From positions 1-16,112 of the forward strand of contig JAMOQH010000051.1 in assembly GCA_027064085.1 (NCBI GenBank): 16,112 bases of DNA, read 5' to 3'. The notes below the pieces were generated by a model that searched no databases, was not told where the DNA came from, and saw only the letters and a program-made list of their open reading frames with translations. Shown here piece by piece: positions 4,623 through 16,112 of the stretch. Source of the DNA: a bacterium. Lineage in GTDB: Bacteria > UBP6 > JAFGXH01. The stretch's first letter is position 1, and each line of letters begins with the position of its first letter. Position numbers and translations under genes: made by a program.

Positions 4623-7193
4623 TTGAAAGATGCTATAAGATTTGGTAAATACTTATTATTACAAAGAATAAATGTTGGTGGAATGGCAGAAGTTTTTAAA
4701 GCCAAGACTTTTGGAGTTGAAGGGTTTGAAAAACTTGTTGCAATAAAAAGAATTCTACCATCTATTGCGGAGGATGATGAGTTTATTAAAATGTTTATTG
4801 ATGAAGCCAAGATAACAGTTAGACTTCAACATGCTAATATTGCTCAAGTTTATGAACTCGGAAAGATAGATGATAGTTACTTTATTGCTATGGAATTTAT
4901 TAATGGAAAGGATTTAAAGCAGTTGTTTGAGCATAATAAAAGAGAAGAACAACCTATGGATATTGCTCAGGCTTGTTATATTACTTCACAATTATGTGCT
5001 GGTCTTGATTATGCTCATAGAAAGAAAGATGATAGAGGTAATGATTTAAATATTATTCATAGAGATGTATCTCCCCAAAATATTAGAATTTCCTATGATG
5101 GAGAAGTAAAAGTTATCGATTTTGGTATTGCAAAAGCTAAAAATAAATCATCTAAGACTGAAGCTGGTATTTTAAAAGGTAAATTTGGTTACATGTCACC
5201 TGAACAAGTACGAGGAAAAACTATAGACAGGCGTTCTGATATTTTTGCTATTGGAATTATATTTTATGAACTAATAACGGGTAGTCGTTTATTTCAAGGT
5301 GAAACAGATTTTTCAACTTTAGAGAAGATAAGAAATGTAGAAATTGAATTACCAACTAAGAGAAATCCTAAAATACCTAAAGAACTAGAAAATATAGTAA
5401 TGAAAGCTCTTACATCTAAAAGAGAGCATCGATATAGTTTTGCTCATGATATGCATGATGATTTACAAAAATTTATGATATTAAATAACTTTATGTATTC
5501 AAGAACAGATTTATCAAATTGGATGAAAATAACATATCGTAAAGACATTGAAAAAGATTTAACGATGTTAAAGCAATATGATAGTTATGATAATTCTCAT
5601 TTTGAAAGTTTAGCAAAGCCTAGTCTTCCAAAGTCTACTCCAGAAGTAATGGAGTGGGATGATGATGAATTGGAAACTCAAATTTTTGATAAATCTCCAT
5701 CTTTTGTTGGAGAGAACCCTAAAGAAAATTCTAATGCTAAAGCAAATAGTGCTAAAATAAAAAAGATGCCAAAGAAAAATCTTGCTAGGGTGTTAAAAGA
5801 AAAGAAAGATAAAGAAAAGAAGCTTAAAAAGTTGATGATTTTAGCATCTTTTGTTGTATTTTTACTTGTTGTTGCATTTGTATATAATCAATTTTTTAGT
5901 GGTAATACTTCTAACTTAAACAATTCTGATAAAAAATATCTTGAATACGAAATGAGTATTGATTTACAAGTTGTTCCAAATAAAATGTTTAATATATATC
6001 TTGACAATAAATTATTAAGAAAAAATGAATCTGCACCATATTTGGTTAAAAATATTAAACCTGGTAATCATGAATTAAAAATTCAAAAATCTGGTTATGT
6101 TTCACAAGTAAAAAAAATAAAAATACCTAAGTTAACAAAAAAAGATGCTGAAGATTTAAAGTCAATGCAAAAAAAACAAGCCATAAAAAAGTATGGTATA
6201 ACCTATGACCAATATCTTTTAGGTATAACAAGCATGATGTTTAAGTTAAAAGAAAGTTCTCTTGAAAATCTTGTTGTTAAAGCTGAGCCAACTGATGTTA
6301 AAATATATTTTCAAGAGAAATTAATTTCAAATAGTTCTCCTGGGGTAATTAAAAATTTGAAATCAGGGAAATATAAACTAAAAGTAGTAAAGGAGGGATA
6401 CAGTTCTTATAGCTCCGAAATTACTATTTCTGAGGAAGATTTATCTAAAAAGAGTAAAGAAATTTCAGTAAAACTAGAAAAGGGTAAATTGGTTGCAATA
6501 GAAATAAAAACTTCTAAAAATACTAGTTTATTTATTGATAATAAAAAGATATCTGGTTCAACCCCTTATAAAGTTAGTGTAACAGAAGGAAAGCATCTAA
6601 TTAAAGTGAAAGGTTCAATATACAAGACTATAACAAAAGAATTAGATTGTAAGGAAAATTCTAAATTTACAATAAAATCAATACAAAAATTTGTAGAATT
6701 AACAATTCGTAGTAAACCGGAGGGGGCAAAAGTTTATTTTTTTGATAAAGATAATTTGAAATCTTCTATTTCTCAGGTTACTCCTGTAACTAAAAAAGTT
6801 GAAATTAGAAATTTAACTGCAATAAAACTAGAGAAAAATGGTTATAAGCCAACATCTCTTAAGTATAAATGGAATAAGAAAGCAAAACAAGCTTTAACTG
6901 TTATTCTTAATAAAAAAGGACAGCCAATAAAGATTACAACCAATAAAAAACATAAGGTAGTTTATAGTAAAAAAACTGCTAAAAAATATGGTTATATTAG
7001 TATCATTAGCCGTCCTGCAACAAATATAAAGGTTGATGGGCGTAACTTAGGAAGAAAAACGCCTTTGATTAAATTTAAAATTCCCGCTGGTAAACACAGA
7101 ATCACTCTTTATAACAAGGCTAAAAAAATAAAGAATAGTTTCACTATTACTGTTATTCAAAATAAGGTTAAACCTATTATAAAGAAATATTAA
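4623..7193 (+). CDS. Membrane Ser/Thr protein kinase with periplasmic PEGA repeats
   Basis: This 856-aa kinase begins at a TTG, the only usable start before an upstream in-frame stop (4596-4598); a weak AGG lies 7 nt before it. Residues about 8-290 form a Hanks-type kinase domain: NVGGMAEV loop (17-24), Lys42 in VAIKR, Glu61, HRD catalytic loop 146-148 (HRDVSPQN), DFG 166-168, SPE at 192-194. The catalytic residues are all present; the glycine loop lacks its first Gly, as in many myxobacterial kinases. A linker with the acidic stretch WDDDELETQIFD (345-356) and a basic region precede one transmembrane segment (about 404-425). Outside lie roughly four to five PEGA-like beta modules (about 447-500, 549-618, 690-765, 790-847, and a weaker one near 620-680), typical carbohydrate- or envelope-facing sensors. 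Substrate unknown. The stop codon overlaps the convergent small gene. Confidence 0.92.
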   Translation: MKDAIRFGKYLLLQRINVGGMAEVFKAKTFGVEGFEKLVAIKRILPSIAEDDEFIKMFIDEAKITVRLQHANIAQVYELGKIDDSYFIAMEFINGKDLKQLFEHNKREEQPMDIAQACYITSQLCAGLDYAHRKKDDRGNDLNIIHRDVSPQNIRISYDGEVKVIDFGIAKAKNKSSKTEAGILKGKFGYMSPEQVRGKTIDRRSDIFAIGIIFYELITGSRLFQGETDFSTLEKIRNVEIELPTKRNPKIPKELENIVMKALTSKREHRYSFAHDMHDDLQKFMILNNFMYSRTDLSNWMKITYRKDIEKDLTMLKQYDSYDNSHFESLAKPSLPKSTPEVMEWDDDELETQIFDKSPSFVGENPKENSNAKANSAKIKKMPKKNLARVLKEKKDKEKKLKKLMILASFVVFLLVVAFVYNQFFSGNTSNLNNSDKKYLEYEMSIDLQVVPNKMFNIYLDNKLLRKNESAPYLVKNIKPGNHELKIQKSGYVSQVKKIKIPKLTKKDAEDLKSMQKKQAIKKYGITYDQYLLGITSMMFKLKESSLENLVVKAEPTDVKIYFQEKLISNSSPGVIKNLKSGKYKLKVVKEGYSSYSSEITISEEDLSKKSKEISVKLEKGKLVAIEIKTSKNTSLFIDNKKISGSTPYKVSVTEGKHLIKVKGSIYKTITKELDCKENSKFTIKSIQKFVELTIRSKPEGAKVYFFDKDNLKSSISQVTPVTKKVEIRNLTAIKLEKNGYKPTSLKYKWNKKAKQALTVILNKKGQPIKITTNKKHKVVYSKKTAKKYGYISIISRPATNIKVDGRNLGRKTPLIKFKIPAGKHRITLYNKAKKIKNSFTITVIQNKVKPIIKKY

Positions 7194-7620: not shown

Positions 7621-8406
7621 ATGTTCAAAGGTTTTATGTTTGTTTTGCTAGCATTTAGTGTTGTTTCTTTGTTGGCCACAGATAATATACAAAATTTTTC
7701 TTATGGAAAAGTTAATTGGAGTAAAAAAACAATAATTGTAACTGGTAGTGGGGCACCGAATTTAAAAACTAAATCTCCATCAAAAGCTAGATTAACTGCA
7801 GAAAGGGCAGCAAAATTAGATGCTTATCGTAATGCATTGGAAGTTGTAAAGGGGTTAAAAATAAAATCAACTTTAACTATTGAAAATGCTATGAAGGGGG
7901 ATAAGACAATTGCGGTACAAGTTCAAGGTATGATTAGAGGTGGTAAAGAGAAAGGTAAAAAATATTATGATGATGGTGGTGTTGATATTATTTTAGAAAT
8001 TCCTCTATCAGGAATTTTACCAGTAAAAAAATATTTATCTAAAGATGCAAAGCAACCTGTATCAGGAAAAGAGAAAAGATATACATCTCTTGTGATTAAT
8101 TTATTAAATTTTAAATATAATAAAGTTTTACAGCCTACAATTAAAAATGAATCTAATAAATTAATTTATTCAATTGATACAGTTAATAAAGATATTGCAA
8201 AAGGAGTAATTGTAAGATATTTTAAAAATATTGATGATGCTAAAAAATTAGTTGGTGAAAATCCATTGGTTATAAATGCAAAATCTTTATCAAAAAAGGA
8301 TAAATCTACTGTAATTATTTCAGATATTGATTCAGAAAAATTTATTAATGGTAAAATTAATTTAGATTTTTTGAAAACAGGTAATGTAATTTTTATAACT
8401 AAATAG
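7621..8406 (+). CDS. Exported LPP20-like protein
   Basis: This 261-aa protein starts at an ATG with a strong AGGAGG. Residues 1-19 form a signal peptide with probable cleavage near LLA|TDN; there is no lipobox cysteine, so it should be periplasmic or secreted rather than lipidated. Residues about 36-136 match the LPP20 pattern: a strand leading to TGSGAPN (41-47), a helix ARLTAERAAKLDAYRNALE (56-74) with the RAAxxDAYRNxxE signature, VVKGLKI, then GMIRGGK (103-109) and an EIPLSGIL strand (126-133). The rest (about 150-261) is a separate lysine-rich beta region with no recognised family. LPP20 domains occur in outer-membrane and flagellar-associated lipoproteins such as FlgP, but no flagellar gene is near. 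It is the first gene of an operon with a FlgT-like and a FecR-domain gene. Confidence 0.8.
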   Translation: MFKGFMFVLLAFSVVSLLATDNIQNFSYGKVNWSKKTIIVTGSGAPNLKTKSPSKARLTAERAAKLDAYRNALEVVKGLKIKSTLTIENAMKGDKTIAVQVQGMIRGGKEKGKKYYDDGGVDIILEIPLSGILPVKKYLSKDAKQPVSGKEKRYTSLVINLLNFKYNKVLQPTIKNESNKLIYSIDTVNKDIAKGVIVRYFKNIDDAKKLVGENPLVINAKSLSKKDKSTVIISDIDSEKFINGKINLDFLKTGNVIFITK

Positions 8407-8413
8407 GGGGGGG
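8406..8413 (+). promoter_or_regulatory. Poly-G (8) ribosome binding site between first two genes of the envelope operon
   Basis: Eight consecutive G residues start at the last base of the upstream TAG stop and end 1 nt before the next ATG (8415). Together with the preceding A this forms the only Shine-Dalgarno-like sequence for the FlgT-like gene. In such AT-rich DNA a G8 run is exceptional. Slippage would change the spacing and so could tune translation of the second gene. Confidence 0.6.
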
Positions 8414-8414
8414 A

Positions 8415-9614
8415 ATGAATAAGTTATTTTTAATATTAGTATTTTTTATTTCAATTTCATCGTTTGCTAAAAATTCTGAAGTTATAACAGTAAAAGGTGA
8501 AGCTGCAATTATGAATAATGATAAGCTTTCTGCAAAAGATAGAGCTTTAGATGATGCAAAAAGAAAAGCAGTTGAACAGGTAACTGGAGTTATTGTTTCT
8601 TCAGAATCTTTAACTCAGAACTTTGAACTTTTAAGCGATAAAATATATAGTAAGGCTAAAGGATATATTAGTAAATATAATGTAGTTAAAGAAGGTGTTG
8701 ATGCTAAAGATAGTGGGGTCTATTTTGTAGAAATTAAAGCAACTGTTTCAAAAAATAAGCTTGAAAAAGATATTTCTGCAGTAACATTATTATATAAATC
8801 TTTAGGGAAACCTAAATTTTTATTAATGATTGCAGAACAAAATTTTGGACAAAAAACAGCAAATGGTTGGTGGAGTAATATAAAAACAACTACAAATTCA
8901 GTTGAAACTGTTATTATTGATAAATTGAGTAAAAAAGGATTTAAGTTTGTAGATGGAAAAACATTACAAAATAAATTAAAAAAGTATTCTCAATTTAAAA
9001 ATATAGATGCCGTTACTGCAAAAGATATTGTTGCAATTAATACACTTCATGATGCTGATTATGTTGTTTATGGTAGTGTTATTGTAAGTGTAAAAAATGG
9101 TCTTGCAAAAACAAAAAGTGGTTTTGCGATAGGAACATTAAAAATAGTTAAATCAAGTAATGGAGCTATTGTTGGAACAATAGAACTTAAAGATAGAAAT
9201 AATAGAGATGGTAATCCTGATAATTTTCGTGGAGAGGCTGTAAACAGACCAGATGAAATTATTGCTTCTGAGGATGCATTTAGTGCTTTCGGAAGAAGAG
9301 CTGCAAAACAATTGTTAAAAAAGGTTTTATCTCACTGGTTAGAACAGGCAAATTCAGTAAGAGAAATTTCTATTAAAATCAAGGGGTTAAAATACAAAAA
9401 ATATAAAAAACTGAAAGCTCATTTGCTTGATATAAGAGGTGTAAAATCTGTTGAAAATTTTAAAATGCAACATAAGATAGCTTCAATGAGAGTTAGTTAT
9501 AAAGGAAGAAGTAATCAATTATTAGATATTCTTACTGAAAAACCTCTTAAAGGATTAAAATTAGAATTAGAAACAATTAATGACAATGAAATAATTTTTT
9601 CTGTGGAGAAATAA
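8415..9614 (+). CDS. Exported FlgT-like protein
   Basis: This 399-aa protein carries a signal peptide (1-18, SSFA|KNSE). Residues about 22-115 match the FlgT N-terminal pattern: ITVKGEAAI (24-32), helix RALDDAKRKAVEQVTGVIV (43-61), then YISKYNVVKEG (84-94) and VEIKATVSK (105-113). Residues about 134-310 look like a TolB/CsgG-type middle domain (FLLMIAEQNFG, SVETVIIDKLSKKGFKFVD, DADYVVYGSVIV). Residues about 315-397 form a basic alpha/beta region, possibly ferredoxin-like, with RGVKSVENF. In vibrios FlgT builds the flagellar H-ring, but the window has no flagellar gene, so I assign domain similarity, not function. It lies 8 nt after the LPP20-like gene and 1 nt before the FecR gene, so co-translation of all three is likely. 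Confidence 0.78.
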   Translation: MNKLFLILVFFISISSFAKNSEVITVKGEAAIMNNDKLSAKDRALDDAKRKAVEQVTGVIVSSESLTQNFELLSDKIYSKAKGYISKYNVVKEGVDAKDSGVYFVEIKATVSKNKLEKDISAVTLLYKSLGKPKFLLMIAEQNFGQKTANGWWSNIKTTTNSVETVIIDKLSKKGFKFVDGKTLQNKLKKYSQFKNIDAVTAKDIVAINTLHDADYVVYGSVIVSVKNGLAKTKSGFAIGTLKIVKSSNGAIVGTIELKDRNNRDGNPDNFRGEAVNRPDEIIASEDAFSAFGRRAAKQLLKKVLSHWLEQANSVREISIKIKGLKYKKYKKLKAHLLDIRGVKSVENFKMQHKIASMRVSYKGRSNQLLDILTEKPLKGLKLELETINDNEIIFSVEK

Positions 9615-9615
9615 T

Positions 9616-10362
9616 ATGATGAAATATAAAAAAATATATATTGCTTTTATATTTTTAATGTCTCTGGTTGTAACATTTTCTATTTCAAGTAAAGGTATAA
9701 AAGCATCAGGAAAAATACTTAAAGTTGATGGTAAATATGCTTTTATTAAGTATGGCAAGAAATGGAAGAGATTAAAGCCTAATTATAAAATATATAATGG
9801 AAGTCAGATTAAAACAGGTAGTAAAACAAGAATTATAATTCAGTTTAGTGATAAATCAGAATTAAGAATTGCTCAAAAATCTAAAATAAAGATAGAAAAG
9901 GCTTTTGTTAAAACACCTGAAAATAGAGAGATTTCAGCTAGATTAATACTTGGTAAATTATGGGCAAAAGTATCTAAATCTAAAAATAAAAATAAAAATT
10001 TTACAATAAAAACGAGTAATGCAACTGCAGGAGTAAGAGGAACAAGCTTTAGTGTTTCTTTTAATGATGATAAATCTTCAATTGTTAGCCTTTATACGGG
10101 TATTGTTGATGTAGAATCAAAAATAAAAAAAGATAAACACAAAAGAGATATGAAAAATTATGACAAAAGAAAAAGAAAAGAGGTGAGTGGTCCTAAAGAG
10201 GTGAGCTTAGATAAATGGAATAAAATAGTCCTTAAGCAAATGCAAAGAGTTGTTGTTGCAGAAAATGGAGAGATGAATACTTTTGATATGAATCCAGTTG
10301 AAGAGCAAAAAGATGAATGGATAGCTTGGAATTCTAAATTAGATAAGTCCCTAGAAAAATAG
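9616..10362 (+). CDS. Exported FecR-domain protein
   Basis: This 248-aa protein starts at the first of two adjacent ATG codons; GGAG (9605-9608) fits either. Residues about 1-24 are a basic and hydrophobic signal peptide or anchor. A FecR domain spans about 50-170: IYNGSQIKTGSKTRIIIQF (59-77), ELRIAQKSKI (82-91), ARLILGKLWAKV (108-119) and the hallmark TSNATAGVRGTSFSV (133-147). A very basic segment follows (about 169-190, KKDKHKRDMK...), then an acidic C-terminal tail. Unlike the classic FecR regulator there is no TonB receptor or sigma factor beside it. FecR domains of this free-standing exported form occur widely in envelope proteins, and a structural or ligand-binding role in the periplasm is inferred. 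It is the last gene of the operon and converges on the coiled-coil gene at 10388. Confidence 0.85.
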   Translation: MMKYKKIYIAFIFLMSLVVTFSISSKGIKASGKILKVDGKYAFIKYGKKWKRLKPNYKIYNGSQIKTGSKTRIIIQFSDKSELRIAQKSKIKIEKAFVKTPENREISARLILGKLWAKVSKSKNKNKNFTIKTSNATAGVRGTSFSVSFNDDKSSIVSLYTGIVDVESKIKKDKHKRDMKNYDKRKRKEVSGPKEVSLDKWNKIVLKQMQRVVVAENGEMNTFDMNPVEEQKDEWIAWNSKLDKSLEK

Positions 10363-10387: not shown

Positions 10388-12046
10388 TTAAAAAGACTCA
10401 AAATCATCTAAATCTATATCGATGTTTTTAGTAATTCTTTCGTTGTATCCAATTAATTCTTGTATTTTCATTTCATATTCTTCTATTTCTTTTTTATAAT
10501 CTTGATTTATATCAATAACTTCTTTATTTTTATTTTTTAATTTATTATATTTTTTTTGAAGATTATCATATAGTTCTTTATGGTAAGTAGAGTTTATCTT
10601 TTTGTTATTTTCATTTAATTCTTGCTTTAAGTTTAATAATAATAAATCTTTGTTTTTAAGTTCATCTTCTAATATAGCGATTCTGTTTTCATGTTCTCTA
10701 ATTATTAAATTCTTTTTATTTAATAATTCTTCTTTTAAAGTATTCTCTTTTCTGAATTCATCAATTTTGAGTTTTAGTTTTTGTATTAAAACACCTTTTT
10801 CATCTAGTAAAGATAAGTTTTTTATATTCTTTTCTCCAAGTTTTTCTATTTTTTTACTTAAATTCTCAAAATCATTACTTATTTTTTTATTTTTTTCTAA
10901 TAATTGTAATAATTTTCTTTCATTTTCTTTTTTTATTTTTTTTAATGTGTTTGTAAATTCTATATCTTTTTTAGATTCAAAGTCTTTTAATTGAATTTCA
11001 AGTTCTTTTACTATTGTAATTAATTCTTTATTCTTTTCATTAACTTCGTCTATATCAAATTTTAAGTGTGAAATTTCAGAGACATATAGATTATTTTGTT
11101 CTATTAAATCATTGTTTTCCTCATATAGTTTCTCTATTTTATCTAAGTTTTTAGATGATTTCTGTATAATTATTCTCAGAGAATCTCTTTTGGCATTACT
11201 TTTATTTTCTTGTATTTCTCTATTTAATTTTACATAATTATTAATTAAATCTATATTCGTTTTAACTAATTTATCTAGGTTATTGATTTCGCCTAAACTA
11301 GAGATATCTTCTTTTGTATTAAATAATTTAATTAAAAAATGAATATAATTTTCATATTTAATTAACTTTATATTATTCTTCTTTATTATATCTTGATTTT
11401 TTAATACTTTTATTGAAAGATCATTAATTACAGATTTTATAAATTTTTGTTTCTGTAGTAATATGTTTTCTCTATTTTTAAATTTAATAAATTTATTTTT
11501 AATTAATTCTCGCTTTTTTGTTTCTTTAATGTATTTATTTTTTTCAATAAAATTTTTTTCTAAATAAGTATTTAAATAACTCATTGACAGTAAACTAGAA
11601 TGGTTTATTTTTAATTGTTCAAAATTATTTGCAATAATTAAGTTGATTGAGTTGGAATTACTTAAAGAAAATTCAACTAGATCTTTACTTTCTTGTGGAA
11701 TAATTTCTAGGTTTATATTAAAAGTACTTATATTAATAAATTTAAAATATTTTGATAATTCATGTGATAATTGAGCTGTTTTATTAGTAAAAAAATATAA
11801 AATACTATTATCATTTAACAATTTAAGTAACTCTAATGGAAAATAATTGAGTTCTTCTAATATAATTGTATTATATTTTTTGTTAGTTAAAATTAAATTG
11901 TTATCAGTAGCAATATCTTTTTGTTCAAAGAGTCTTTCTTTTGTATTAAAAAAGTCATATTCTTTTTCTTTTACTACTTGTAATAATGGGTATTCAATTT
12001 TTTTGTACAAAATATTATATTTTATCTTTTTTATTAATTTATTCAT
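10388..12046 (-). CDS. Large coiled-coil protein with N-terminal alpha/beta domain
   Basis: This 552-aa protein has no signal peptide or membrane segment and is probably cytoplasmic. Residues about 1-165 are globular, alternating strands and helices (NTIILEELNYFPLELLKLL at 59-77, NSILYFFTN at 80-88, KYFKFINIS at 99-107). The order resembles the second half of a Rossmann-like methyltransferase fold, but I see no glycine-rich SAM motif, so any relation would be degenerate. Residues about 165-540 are long Lys/Glu/Asn/Leu-rich coiled coil with few breaks. The end is a short acidic, aromatic tail (DIDLDDFESF, 543-552) that might be a docking peptide. Its ATG overlaps the previous stop by 8 nt (ATGAATAA) and lacks a good ribosome binding site. 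It is the last gene of the STAS/HATPase operon. A scaffold role is a guess. Confidence 0.8.
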   Translation of the reverse strand: MNKLIKKIKYNILYKKIEYPLLQVVKEKEYDFFNTKERLFEQKDIATDNNLILTNKKYNTIILEELNYFPLELLKLLNDNSILYFFTNKTAQLSHELSKYFKFINISTFNINLEIIPQESKDLVEFSLSNSNSINLIIANNFEQLKINHSSLLSMSYLNTYLEKNFIEKNKYIKETKKRELIKNKFIKFKNRENILLQKQKFIKSVINDLSIKVLKNQDIIKKNNIKLIKYENYIHFLIKLFNTKEDISSLGEINNLDKLVKTNIDLINNYVKLNREIQENKSNAKRDSLRIIIQKSSKNLDKIEKLYEENNDLIEQNNLYVSEISHLKFDIDEVNEKNKELITIVKELEIQLKDFESKKDIEFTNTLKKIKKENERKLLQLLEKNKKISNDFENLSKKIEKLGEKNIKNLSLLDEKGVLIQKLKLKIDEFRKENTLKEELLNKKNLIIREHENRIAILEDELKNKDLLLLNLKQELNENNKKINSTYHKELYDNLQKKYNKLKNKNKEVIDINQDYKKEIEEYEMKIQELIGYNERITKNIDIDLDDFESF

Positions 12047-13025
12047 TTTTTATTAAAATCTCTATACTGTCACTCAAACCTTTTTTTATATCTAATAATT
12101 CAACTTTGTATTTTTTACTTTTCTTTTTAGGGTATATAATAATTCCATTTTTAATTATTTGCATTTGTAATACTTTATTATTAGAAATGCTCCATTTTAG
12201 TTTTTTATTTGTTGAATCATTTTTTAAAATAATTCCTTTTGTTTTAAAAGTATAAAAATCAATGTTTATTTTATCTACACTATTATTTTTATATAAGATA
12301 TTGAAATTTGTTGGCAGAGTACCATCTTTATTCAATTTAATTACTTCAATAATATCCATATATTTTCCTATCTTGGCATAAATGGAACACTTCTGCTCAT
12401 TTTTAAAAAAAGTAAAAGAAAACCTGCTGCTATCTTTTATTTTTAATTTACCACATGAAGAAGTTAATTTAATGCTATTATTTTTAAAGTAATTGCCGTT
12501 TTCATCTATGGCCATTGCTTTTAGTAATACAAAATTATCATTTGGTGGAATTATTATTTTTTGACTATAAGTATTTTCATTTTGTAAAATTTTAACTCCA
12601 AGTAAAACTGGTTCTTTTTTTATTTTAGGTTTATCAATTTTTTTTACTTCATAATACGAAAGGATTACATCATTATTTGAATCTTTCTTTATTGGAATTA
12701 TCTTAAAATCTTCTTTTAATTTTTTTAATAAATTATTTTTCTTTTCAATCGTTTCTTGTTTATCAAGTTTATATTCAATAACTGCTACCCATTTATTTAA
12801 GGGGGCTTTTACTAATTTTAGTGGTTTCTTACATGAGTTACAAGCATCTATGTCTGAAAATTTTCCAGAAGTAAAGTTATAAGATTTTAGTTCATAGTCA
12901 ATATTATAGTCAAATCTACTACCATTTTGAACACTTACAACATTTTTAACATAATATAAATTTATATCAGCATATAATAAAATACTGAATAAAAAACTAA
13001 TCATATATATTAGTAAATTCTTCAT
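12039..13025 (-). CDS. Exported protein with Ig-like region and CxxC motif
   Basis: This 328-aa protein begins at the ATG at 13025, supported by AGAGGA 6 nt upstream and a proper basic n-region. An alternative ATG at 13004 would give an 8-nt overlap like the other junctions but a poorer signal peptide. Residues 1-19 are the signal peptide (SILLYA|DINL). Residues 62-65 form a CNSC motif, which could be a disulfide or metal site. Residues about 140-230 look like a bacterial Ig-like beta domain (AIDENGNYFKNNSIKLTS at 172-189), with Cys191 and Cys213 placed to pair. The C-terminal third is another beta-rich region. I recognise no named family. The gene overlaps its upstream neighbour by 29 nt and its downstream neighbour by 8 nt. 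Confidence 0.75.
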   Translation of the reverse strand: MKNLLIYMISFLFSILLYADINLYYVKNVVSVQNGSRFDYNIDYELKSYNFTSGKFSDIDACNSCKKPLKLVKAPLNKWVAVIEYKLDKQETIEKKNNLLKKLKEDFKIIPIKKDSNNDVILSYYEVKKIDKPKIKKEPVLLGVKILQNENTYSQKIIIPPNDNFVLLKAMAIDENGNYFKNNSIKLTSSCGKLKIKDSSRFSFTFFKNEQKCSIYAKIGKYMDIIEVIKLNKDGTLPTNFNILYKNNSVDKINIDFYTFKTKGIILKNDSTNKKLKWSISNNKVLQMQIIKNGIIIYPKKKSKKYKVELLDIKKGLSDSIEILIKNE

Positions 13026-13539
13026 CTAATTCCTCTAATTTTGCTTTTGCGTTTTTATATTCTTCTAAAATATTATTATATTTTTTAGATAATTTATTAT
13101 ATTTTTCTTTTAATTCATTTAATTTAGGAATATCTTTAGTGTCTTCAGACATATTTGCAATAATTTTAATTTTAGACATTAAGTTTTCATTTTCTTTAAT
13201 AATTATTTCTCTTTCTAATTTTAATGCAGTGGTATTATTTGTATTCTTTTCTACAACATTTGAAATTTCTTCTTTTAAAGCATTTTTTTCTTGTTTTTTC
13301 TTTTCAATAGATGCTTTTAATTCTTTATCTTCGGGATTACTCTCATATAGAATTGACAATTCTTCTATTTCTTTGTTTTTATTTTCAATAATGGATGACA
13401 AATATAACAAATATGATTTGACCTTTTCTTCACTAACTTGCTTTTGCTTTATTAAAATATCTTTTTTATAATTTATATATATATATATATTTATTAAAAA
13501 GATTGTTAAAAAAAATAAGCCTATAATTAATTTATCCAT
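12997..13539 (-). CDS. Single-pass membrane coiled-coil protein
   Basis: This 180-aa protein has one N-terminal membrane segment (about 4-23, LIIGLFFLTIFLINIYIYIN) followed by about 150 residues of Lys/Glu-rich coiled coil (about 30-175). The layout is that of a signal-anchored protein; the side holding the coil cannot be read with confidence, though the positive residues after the segment (YKKD) favour the coil inside. The membrane segment is partly encoded by a (TA)8 run. The ATG overlaps the HATPase stop as ATGGATAA. It sits between a cytoplasmic regulator pair and an exported protein, so a linking role across the membrane is plausible but inferred. No family recognised. Confidence 0.75.
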   Translation of the reverse strand: MDKLIIGLFFLTIFLINIYIYINYKKDILIKQKQVSEEKVKSYLLYLSSIIENKNKEIEELSILYESNPEDKELKASIEKKKQEKNALKEEISNVVEKNTNNTTALKLEREIIIKENENLMSKIKIIANMSEDTKDIPKLNELKEKYNKLSKKYNNILEEYKNAKAKLEELDEEFTNIYD

Positions 13540-14068
13540 TTATATATTTCTCTATAATTATTTCATTTCCTTTTTTATTCCAATAAATTTTATCTGAATG
13601 GATTTTTATTAATTTTATACCTCTTCCGTAAGTTTTATAATTATCTATCTTTAAATCAGAATATTTAAAACCATTTCCCTCATCTTTAATCATTAATATA
13701 ATTTTATCATTTTTGAAAATAATTTCTAAATAAACTTTTTTAGTATTATAATCTATACTTTTTTGTCTTTCTATAACCAAACGATTAAACTCGTCAAAAC
13801 CATTATCGTTTTCTTTGATTTTAGAGTTTATATTGAATATTCCATGATAAAAAGAATTTAAAATACTTTCTTTTAGAATAATTTCAAGACTATACTGAAA
13901 CTCAGAAGAATAGTTAGTAAATAACTTTTTAATTAAAAACAAAGTAAAACAATCAATTTCATTAAGGTTAAATATTTTAGAATTAAATTCTAATTTAATT
14001 GAGTTTTCTGCTTCTTCAGTTATTAATTTATTGAAAATAATAAACTTTTTTTCACAATCTTTAATCAT
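13532..14068 (-). CDS. RsbW-like ATP-binding protein (HATPase_c, anti-sigma kinase type)
   Basis: This 178-aa protein has the GHKL ATPase motifs of anti-sigma-factor kinases: N box LEIILKESILNSFYHG (61-76) with Asn71 expected to hold Mg, G1 box MIKDEGNGF (126-134), and G2 region TYGRGIKLIKIHSDKI (146-161), then a final strand GNEIIIEKY. There is no His phosphoacceptor domain or membrane segment, so it is not a sensor kinase. The family phosphorylates a Ser on a partner STAS protein or binds a sigma factor or other target. Its STAS partner is encoded immediately upstream with an 8-nt overlap (ATGATTAA). A charged insert between N and G1 boxes (about 80-110) is longer than in compact RsbW proteins. 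No sigma factor gene is in the operon, so the output may be another protein, possibly one of the coiled-coil neighbours. Confidence 0.85.
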   Translation of the reverse strand: MIKDCEKKFIIFNKLITEEAENSIKLEFNSKIFNLNEIDCFTLFLIKKLFTNYSSEFQYSLEIILKESILNSFYHGIFNINSKIKENDNGFDEFNRLVIERQKSIDYNTKKVYLEIIFKNDKIILMIKDEGNGFKYSDLKIDNYKTYGRGIKLIKIHSDKIYWNKKGNEIIIEKYING

Positions 14069-14399
14069 ATTTTATACTATCAGTAGCATCTTTTAAATTG
14101 TCATAAAAATCAAATAATCTTTCCAACCCCATAATCTCAAGAGTTTCATATGTTTTAGAATTTAATGCAACTAATTTCAACTTAAAATCATTTTGTAAAG
14201 ATAATTTGTAAATTCTAAATAAGTATCCAATTGTTGCAGAATCAATCATAAGAACATTTTCAAAATTTAAAATAATTGTTTTGGGATTATCGGCCAATAG
14301 ATTGTTTAGTATTTTTTGGAAATCAGATAAATTTGGAGATGTCATATATGTATCCAAGATTATTGATTCTACTCCTTTAGAGATATTTTGATGTTTCAT
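14061..14399 (-). CDS. STAS-domain anti-sigma factor antagonist (SpoIIAA/RsbV-like)
   Basis: The start is placed at the ATG at 14399, because AGGGAG (14410-14405) lies 5 nt upstream; a TTG ten codons earlier (14429) has no such support. The product is 112 aa, the usual length of single-domain STAS antagonists. The core strand and helix read TIILNFENVLMIDSATIGYL (41-60), with Ser54 in DSATIG at the position of the phosphorylated Ser of SpoIIAA/RsbV. The C-terminal part (LKLVALNSKTYETLEIMGL, 74-92) also fits the family. It should be switched by phosphorylation by the HATPase encoded next. No PP2C phosphatase (SpoIIE/RsbU type) is in the window to reverse it. It is the first gene of the five-gene operon. 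Confidence 0.87.
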   Translation of the reverse strand: MKHQNISKGVESIILDTYMTSPNLSDFQKILNNLLADNPKTIILNFENVLMIDSATIGYLFRIYKLSLQNDFKLKLVALNSKTYETLEIMGLERLFDFYDNLKDATDSIKYD

Positions 14400-14429
14400 A
14401 TTTACTCCCTTAAAAACTTCACTTGCCAA

Positions 14430-14617
14430 TATTTATTTATTGTGAAGTTAGAATAACTTTTTAAGTTTATCATATAAGATTCTTTATTACAAATTTTTAG
14501 ATTTTTATTAACTCCATTTTAAAAACTATTTTTAAAAAATATGTTTTATTTATTGAATATGTTAAATTTCTAAGATATATTTTATTTATTTGGTAAATAA
14601 TTGGAGATAATTATATA
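14430..14617. other. Intergenic region between the surface-protein gene and the STAS operon
   Basis: This 188-bp gap is extremely AT-rich. Apart from the inverted repeat at 14445, it holds an AT-only hairpin with 9-bp arms (14517-14525 and 14529-14537, 3-nt loop) followed by A/T runs. It might end transcription of the upstream gene, but without GC pairs the stem is weak. No small gene or RNA is visible. Confidence 0.4.
14445..14459. promoter_or_regulatory. Perfect inverted repeat upstream of the STAS operon
   Basis: AAGTTA-GAA-TAACTT has two perfect 6-bp arms around 3 nt, 46 bp before the STAS start codon. It could be an operator, since the site falls where a promoter or leader of this operon would lie. 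I saw no convincing -35/-10 pair to anchor it, so the regulatory role is a guess. Confidence 0.35.
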
Positions 14618-16112
14618 TTACGGCCTTTGCCAATTAACTTTAATGTTACTTAAACTAGGTTTATCATCATTTGTTGCACCAATACTCATTACAACTTCAA
14701 TTTGAATAAATCTTCCTATTGGAGTATTTCCACTTGGCCATGTTAAATATTCACCTGATGTTGTTACAAAATTACTCCATTCTGGAGAATTTGGATCTGT
14801 GTCGTTTAATAAAAAGTAATTTCTATTATTTGAAACTCTTGCTCTAATTTTTATACTTGAACCATTTGGAGTTGAACCTGTCCATGAAATACTATCATAT
14901 TTGGCACTACTTCTTTTCGTATCAACTATTGTTTTAAAACTTCCACTAGGTGAAACAATGTTTCTTAAATTGAAACCAGTTAAATCAGAGTATGAATATG
15001 GAGCCGTTCCTGTATTTTGTCGCCCTTTCTCCGTTCCATCTTGATTTAATTCAACAGCTTGACCACTTGATGAATCTCTGTTGATTACCCATACTTCATC
15101 TTCACTGTCAACACCTATACCAATAGGGGAGCTACCTTTAGAAGAATAACTTCCTAGCTGGTTACCGTTTGAGTTGAATTTACCAACTTTATTAGAGCCA
15201 CTAAATGCACACCAAATATTACCTTGGCTATCAGTTGCAATACCTCTACCATTACCGCCACCATTAAATGAATGGTTAGTGATAGTTATTGAGTCATTAG
15301 CTTCATTATAAACTAATTCATTGATTCCTCCATTTCCCCAGCCTCCATACCAAACATGGTCGTTACTGTCTATAACTATACCATAAGTCTGAACTTCAGT
15401 ACCATTAGAGAATTGCATAGTATATTGACTAAAAAAGCCATTGTCTCCTGGATTTTTATTTGTGTTTATTCGTAAGACTTTTCTTGTGTTACCATTATAA
15501 CTATCATCTAATCTTGAGCTCCATAAGTAACCTCTACTATCTATTGCCAATCCATATATAGGAACTCCTGATTGATATGGAAAACCTTGAAACACAGTTC
15601 CTGTAGGAGATATTTTATAAACTGCACCATCATAAGAGCCCATAGTATGTCTTAATGCAAAGCAACCAACCCATGCATTTCCGTTTCTGTCTATTGCTAC
15701 ACCTCTAGGAGCACAATCTGTATGTAAATTTACCGTAAATGCCAGTGAACCATCTGCGTTTAATTTAGTAACATTATGGCTACTTCTATTTGCAACCCAA
15801 ACAGAACCATCTCTTTCAACTGCTGTTCTTGATGGATTATCTCCAACTGGAAATGTACCCTCATTTGCTCTTGTTTTGGTATTTATTTTCGTAACAGTAT
15901 CATCTGCACTATTAGCAATCCAAATGTAGTCATTTTGTATAGTGGAACTATCCAGAGTTAATTTATTTGGGTCATCTGGGTCAGTACCAATACCATCATA
16001 ATCATTGTCATCATCAATAAGGTCATCATTTACATTGTTTAGACATGAAGGATAATCAGCACTGTTTTCATTACATTCGGGTGTATCTGTACCTATATTT
16101 ATTTCATAGCAA
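14618..16112 (-). CDS. Secreted/surface NHL-like beta-propeller protein, C-terminal part (runs off right edge)
   Basis: The minus-strand frame is open from the right edge (codon at 16111) to the TAA at 14618, giving 497 residues without the N-terminus; an internal ATG at 15643 is not the start. The first part seen has scattered Cys and an acidic run IDDDNDYDGIGTDPDDP, like thrombospondin type 3 or MopE-type calcium sites. Then follow about six propeller-blade repeats with the pattern G-(I/V)-A-x-D-x-x-G-x-(V/I/A)-W: PSRTAVERDGSVWVANR, RGVAIDRNGNAWVG, YGLAIDSRGYLWSS, RGIATDSQGNIWCA, IGIGVDSEDEVWVINR. This fits NHL / Virginiamycin B lyase-like propellers. The last 110 residues form a beta-sandwich-like domain ending VNWQRP. 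An extracellular adhesion or ligand-binding role is inferred. It appears less AT-biased than the operon downstream. Confidence 0.85.
   Translation of the reverse strand, partial: CYEINIGTDTPECNENSADYPSCLNNVNDDLIDDDNDYDGIGTDPDDPNKLTLDSSTIQNDYIWIANSADDTVTKINTKTRANEGTFPVGDNPSRTAVERDGSVWVANRSSHNVTKLNADGSLAFTVNLHTDCAPRGVAIDRNGNAWVGCFALRHTMGSYDGAVYKISPTGTVFQGFPYQSGVPIYGLAIDSRGYLWSSRLDDSYNGNTRKVLRINTNKNPGDNGFFSQYTMQFSNGTEVQTYGIVIDSNDHVWYGGWGNGGINELVYNEANDSITITNHSFNGGGNGRGIATDSQGNIWCAFSGSNKVGKFNSNGNQLGSYSSKGSSPIGIGVDSEDEVWVINRDSSSGQAVELNQDGTEKGRQNTGTAPYSYSDLTGFNLRNIVSPSGSFKTIVDTKRSSAKYDSISWTGSTPNGSSIKIRARVSNNRNYFLLNDTDPNSPEWSNFVTTSGEYLTWPSGNTPIGRFIQIEVVMSIGATNDDKPSLSNIKVNWQRP

Follow-up and report, generated by a model that had tools for sequence, protein, structure and literature searches.

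A putative serine-kinase/STAS switch encoded in line with three family-restricted proteins on a contig of an uncultivated bacterium

The window, that is, the whole stretch of DNA that was analysed (16,112 nt), corresponds to the complete contig C51 of an uncultivated, AT-rich bacterium, whose genome is referred to here as G000. The open reading frame (ORF) map revealed five genes in one orientation on the minus strand, running from 14399 down to 10388. The features of this region are as follows.

14400..14617, minus strand: intergenic stretch, the candidate site of the operon promoter (gene map)
14061..14399, minus strand: STAS-domain protein of the antagonist type, 112 aa (Pfam STAS, TIGR00377, and PDB RsfB matches)
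13532..14068, minus strand: RsbW-like HATPase, putative serine kinase, 178 aa (HATPase_c_2, SenB 9qih, insert and motifs)
12997..13539, minus strand: membrane-anchored coiled-coil protein, 180 aa (hydropathy; ortholog G002:C118)
12039..13025, minus strand: exported CxxC protein with a signal peptide, 328 aa (ortholog G002:C35; structure model)
10388..12046, minus strand: cytoplasmic coiled-coil protein, 552 aa (homolog G002:C243, fragment G001:C79; structure model)

As described in the earlier note on this DNA, the reading frames overlap; all four overlaps lie on the minus strand and measure 8, 8, 29, and 8 bp in the order STAS, HATPase, membrane coiled-coil, exported, and 552-aa protein. A good ribosome-binding site, AAGGGAG, is located upstream of the STAS ATG. 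The overlaps between successive genes indicate that the five genes form one tightly coupled operon, presumably read as a single transcript. If the five genes are one unit, the promoter must lie in 14400..14617. A promoter scan over the region returned 51 hits compared with 39.6 ± 7.6 in shuffled sequences, which is not clearly above chance. The G+C content of the five genes is 18–24%, versus 25–35% around them, and the third-position G+C (12–18%) is as elsewhere. A foreign origin was considered for this low G+C and rejected because the third-position G+C equals that of the other genes. The low G+C at 10388-14399 is an effect of amino-acid composition.

The neighbouring genes are of several kinds. 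On the strand of the operon and immediately upstream of it, 14618-16111 encodes a beta-propeller (NHL/Vgb-like) protein that is cut by the contig end. Three consecutive plus-strand genes for exported proteins (7621-10362) converge on the operon and leave a gap of 25 bp; one of them has FlgT_N and LpoB-like matches, and another has a FecR domain. Farther along, 4623-7193 encodes a Ser/Thr protein kinase with four PEGA domains C-terminal to its transmembrane segment.

The first gene of the operon encodes a STAS protein by its Pfam match (E 1.6e-13). It also matched TIGR00377 (E 2.8e-10, under the cut-off of that model) and, among PDB sequences, RsfB (E 6.7e-4). Ser54 lies within MIDSATIG at the conserved D-S site ('DSA') and is a candidate phosphosite. 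The reading of this protein as a STAS antagonist with Ser54 was thereby upheld.

The second protein matched HATPase_c_2 with an E value of 1e-4 and 22.7 bits, slightly short of the Pfam cut-off of 27.4. In the alignment, the nucleotide-binding motifs are retained, namely the N-box (E67/N71), D129-x-G-x-G, and G148-R-G150. An insert of approximately 35 aa follows the HG of the N-box; an insert of this kind, approximately 30–40 aa long, is common to the HATPases of the genomes G012, G014, G015, G019, G020, G035, and G043. Within our local set, these same HATPases matched the window protein with E values of 1e-13 to 4e-10; in its own genome, the RsbW-like HATPase of contig C156 and RsbT reached E 0.11 and E 0.06, respectively. 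Given the intact motifs and the matches in relatives, its description as an RsbW-like HATPase can be retained despite the sub-cut-off Pfam score. The best PDB sequence match was SenB (9qih; E 3.2e-5, residues 51-175), but SenB is 304 aa long, and its HATPase lies in the C-terminal half (166-293). No relevant paper on SenB turned up in literature searches. The pair is best read as an orphan serine-kinase/STAS switch with a putative kinase reaction, in an operon seen in one genome.

The ORF map of the 16-kb contig contains no sigma factor or PP2C gene, in agreement with the earlier note, and no anti-sigma gene; this absence does not extend to sigma and PP2C genes in the genome, which was covered through family searches and selected stretches. 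A search for either gene elsewhere in G000 found both: 11 genes with sigma-70 region 2, all on other contigs, and an RsbU-like GAF-PP2C gene at C22:47619, with a sensor kinase and a receiver protein encoded next to it. A full rsbR-rsbS-rsbT-rsbX-like stressosome set also lies on contig C122 (L050:5493-8526), with a GGDEF gene after it and no sigma factor. One alternative is that the pair controls a sigma factor of the genome directly or via an anti-sigma factor, the three co-transcribed genes being passengers or regulon. The 11 sigma genes and the profile kinship of the HATPase to the RsbW and SpoIIAB structures speak for it. As in RsbW/RsbV and SpoIIAB/SpoIIAA, a HATPase and a STAS protein with a D-S phosphosite are encoded by adjacent genes. 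However, unlike in those systems, no sigma gene is linked to the pair, nor is an anti-sigma gene present on the contig, and the insert is absent from the RsbW-like HATPase of C156. The HATPase is also not of the RsbW or SpoIIAB kind by pairwise sequence or by the NCBI equivalog models, in which it scored 16 bits for RsbW (cut-off 145) and 13 for SpoIIAB (cut-off 135) and passed neither, although the RsbW-like protein of C156 missed these cut-offs as well. We regard control of a sigma factor as somewhat unlikely.

The earlier statement that established switches of this type (RsbW/V, SpoIIAB/AA) act on sigma factors is incomplete, since the targets in SypE/SypA, HmpU/V/W, and HsbR/HsbA-HsbD are unknown or are not sigma factors (PMC8256260, PMC5085249). 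When phosphorylated, HsbA binds HsbD, a diguanylate cyclase (PMC5085249), and the targets of SypA and HmpV are unknown (PMC8256260). By the precedent of HsbR/HsbA, SypE/SypA, and HmpW/HmpV, direct action on a sigma factor is not a necessary feature of a switch of this kind. Like HsbR/HsbA of Pseudomonas aeruginosa and SypE/SypA of Vibrio fischeri, whose outputs are not, or not only, sigma-related, the window encodes a small STAS protein with a Ser as candidate phosphosite and a dedicated, here putative, kinase; the likeness is one of description. In HsbR and SypE, kinase and phosphatase activity both belong to a larger response regulator, whereas the window HATPase is a stand-alone protein of 178 aa on a contig with no receiver or PP2C. 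HmpU/V/W and HmpF of Nostoc punctiforme offer a second comparison, again by description only, as a partner switch and a coiled-coil protein take part there in one motility programme. HmpF, a coiled-coil regulator of type IV pili, also takes part in hormogonium motility in Nostoc (PMC12288463); it is encoded beside, and steered by, a chemotaxis-like system and is not in an operon with the switch.

The HATPases nearest the window one in G010, G012, G014, G015, G019, and G020 sit in chemosensory clusters with a PATAN-type response regulator, and two STAS genes were seen, in the clusters of G012 (C3) and G015 (C78). The HATPases of G035 and G043 lie C-terminal to a receiver-like part, with a STAS gene adjoining in G035. 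The pair may thus work like HsbR/HsbA or like the chemosensory STAS and HATPase proteins of the phylum, feeding a distant diguanylate cyclase or taxis array. The HsbD precedent fits this proposal, as does a chemosensory cluster on contig C144 of G000 that has no STAS or HATPase of its own. G012 and G015 share the insert-type HATPase and a clustered STAS gene with the window, but their pairs are flanked by CheA/B/D/R/W and the PATAN response regulator and the window pair by coiled-coil genes; no chemosensory, receiver, or GGDEF gene was found in the ORF map of the contig. The HATPase tree, with its long branches and open forks, places the window protein with weak support, and BLAST favours the insert-type group. 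A chemosensory or second-messenger role is, on balance, unlikely. Across the phylum, the chemosensory clusters (L051 = G015:C78, L053 = G012:C3, and L087-L089) combine an insert-type HATPase, a PATAN response regulator, and Che genes.

The remaining three genes encode proteins of structural appearance or exported proteins. The membrane coiled-coil protein has one hydrophobic segment, which is N-terminal with a hydropathy peak at residues 4-22. Its full-length ortholog is G002:C118 (E 2.3e-32, 45% identity). KK directly follows the transmembrane segment in both proteins, which, under the positive-inside rule, makes a cytoplasmic location of the coiled coil probable.

The exported protein has an ortholog in G002:C35 (E 3.6e-40, 36% identity). 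A CNSC motif (C62/C65), C191, and C213 make up its four cysteines, and all four are conserved in that ortholog. In its structure model (mean pLDDT 52, built from two sequences), residues 19-130 are well predicted as an N-terminal alpha/beta domain, and the rest is of low confidence. Residues 137-235 of the model have a weak likeness to the S-layer protein SbsC (Z 3.2). The signal peptide and the CxxC motif noted earlier were recovered; the Ig-like part of that description is weak, as the confident N-terminal domain is alpha/beta.

The 552-aa protein has no hydrophobic segment by hydropathy and consists of an N-terminal alpha/beta domain of approximately 120–150 aa, modelled with low confidence (mean pLDDT 55, also from two sequences), followed by a long coiled coil. 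The term coiled coil in its earlier description therefore applies to all but this N-terminal part. The homolog on G002:C243 is 774 aa long; the coiled coils match with E 2.9e-4 and the N-termini, in a two-sequence comparison, with E 5e-4. G001:C79 holds a fragment of the large coiled-coil gene at a contig end, and the C-terminal motif YEMKI-ELIGYNER of the coiled coil is conserved in G001 and G002. Fold searches with the AlphaFold models of the exported and 552-aa proteins yielded nothing significant. For the N-terminus of the 552-aa protein, a Rossmann-like identity, methyltransferase-like or other, was considered and not established, the fold searches being uninformative. As for the membrane-spanning gene set proposed previously, a single-TM coiled-coil protein and an exported protein are encoded, but no one protein has domains demonstrated on both sides of the membrane.

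The family is represented by three genomes: G000, G001 (93% complete), and G002 (82% complete), the latter two of another genus. Judged by homology, the three non-switch genes are genuine, as each has a homolog in that other genus. In G002, they lie on three contigs, C35, C118, and C243. On C35, the exported-protein gene has genes for an SNF2 helicase and for a riboflavin function as neighbours; on C243, iron-sulfur oxidoreductase-like and TolC-like genes flank the large coiled-coil gene (all names read from translations). In G001, the large coiled-coil gene alone was found of the three; it is cut by the contig end, its downstream neighbours differ, and the missing genes may reflect assembly gaps. 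Searches of G001 and G002 revealed no ortholog of the STAS/HATPase pair; the sole stand-alone STAS genes of these two genomes (C12 and C82) belong to a different, RsbW-like pair that G000 has on C156. Thus, the five genes are not adjacent in either relative, and the gene order, known from one genome only, is not fixed as the earlier note assumed. That note had named such separation in relatives as evidence against its model, and separation is what this sampling of two genomes revealed.

Of all 28 genomes of the phylum, G000 and G002 alone yielded the exported and the membrane coiled-coil proteins; a G015 match with two stops (E 0.0026) was set aside as noise. The genome-contig scan with the exported protein returned G002's own record as the sole match, and a plasmid tblastn search gave weak matches only, to Vibrio records unannotated at that place. 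The three non-switch proteins have been found so far in this bacterial family only. Since they persist in G002 without the STAS/HATPase pair, their core function seems to be independent of this switch. These observations also bear on whether the five genes are chance neighbours, a rearrangement having set an orphan switch ahead of three unrelated genes with shared transcription as the only link. In favour of this, the three genes lie apart in G002, and the gene order around them is not conserved between the genera. However, four successive overlaps of 8–29 bp are unusual for unrelated genes, and the pair is followed by three genes of one orientation, each of them family-restricted. We consider chance neighbourhood quite improbable.

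We therefore favour the account of a five-gene operon in which a serine-kinase/antagonist switch is combined with three family-restricted proteins and in which the output is likelier a protein than a dedicated sigma factor, and we give it a probability of approximately 40%. The points against it are that the five-gene order comes from one genome, that G002 has the trio dispersed and without the pair, and that the genome has 11 sigma genes. By analogy with known switches, the HATPase would bind ATP and phosphorylate Ser54 of the STAS protein; the reaction would be reversed by a phosphatase from another locus, for which the RsbU-like PP2C of C22 is a candidate. The phosphorylation state of Ser54 would then decide whether the STAS protein is held by the kinase or is free for an output protein, for which a protein target is likelier than a dedicated sigma factor. 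The most economical choice of candidate targets is the coiled-coil proteins, as they are encoded in the same operon as the switch: the membrane-tethered coiled coil and the 552-aa protein may form a cytoplasmic assembly, and the exported CxxC protein may be the periplasmic companion of this assembly. The more specific proposal that the STAS protein or the HATPase docks on the coiled-coil proteins and, bypassing transcription, controls how an envelope structure is assembled is plausible but improbable. The HATPase/STAS type of switch is well known, its link to coiled-coil/envelope genes has been seen in one genome, and a switch-controlled scaffold stays a guess because the near relatives keep the three genes scattered and without the switch.

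Should the switch control the coiled-coil proteins, serine-phosphorylation switches would extend from gene regulation to the direct control of an envelope scaffold, and one orphan STAS/HATPase pair would gain a named candidate output. As the evidence stands, the locus mainly provides a clear candidate for such a test, together with a description of three conserved, functionally uncharacterized proteins. Separately, the AT-rich record DYRY01000027.1 (L082) is titled Anaeromyxobacter dehalogenans, a species with very high G+C, and this label looks wrong.
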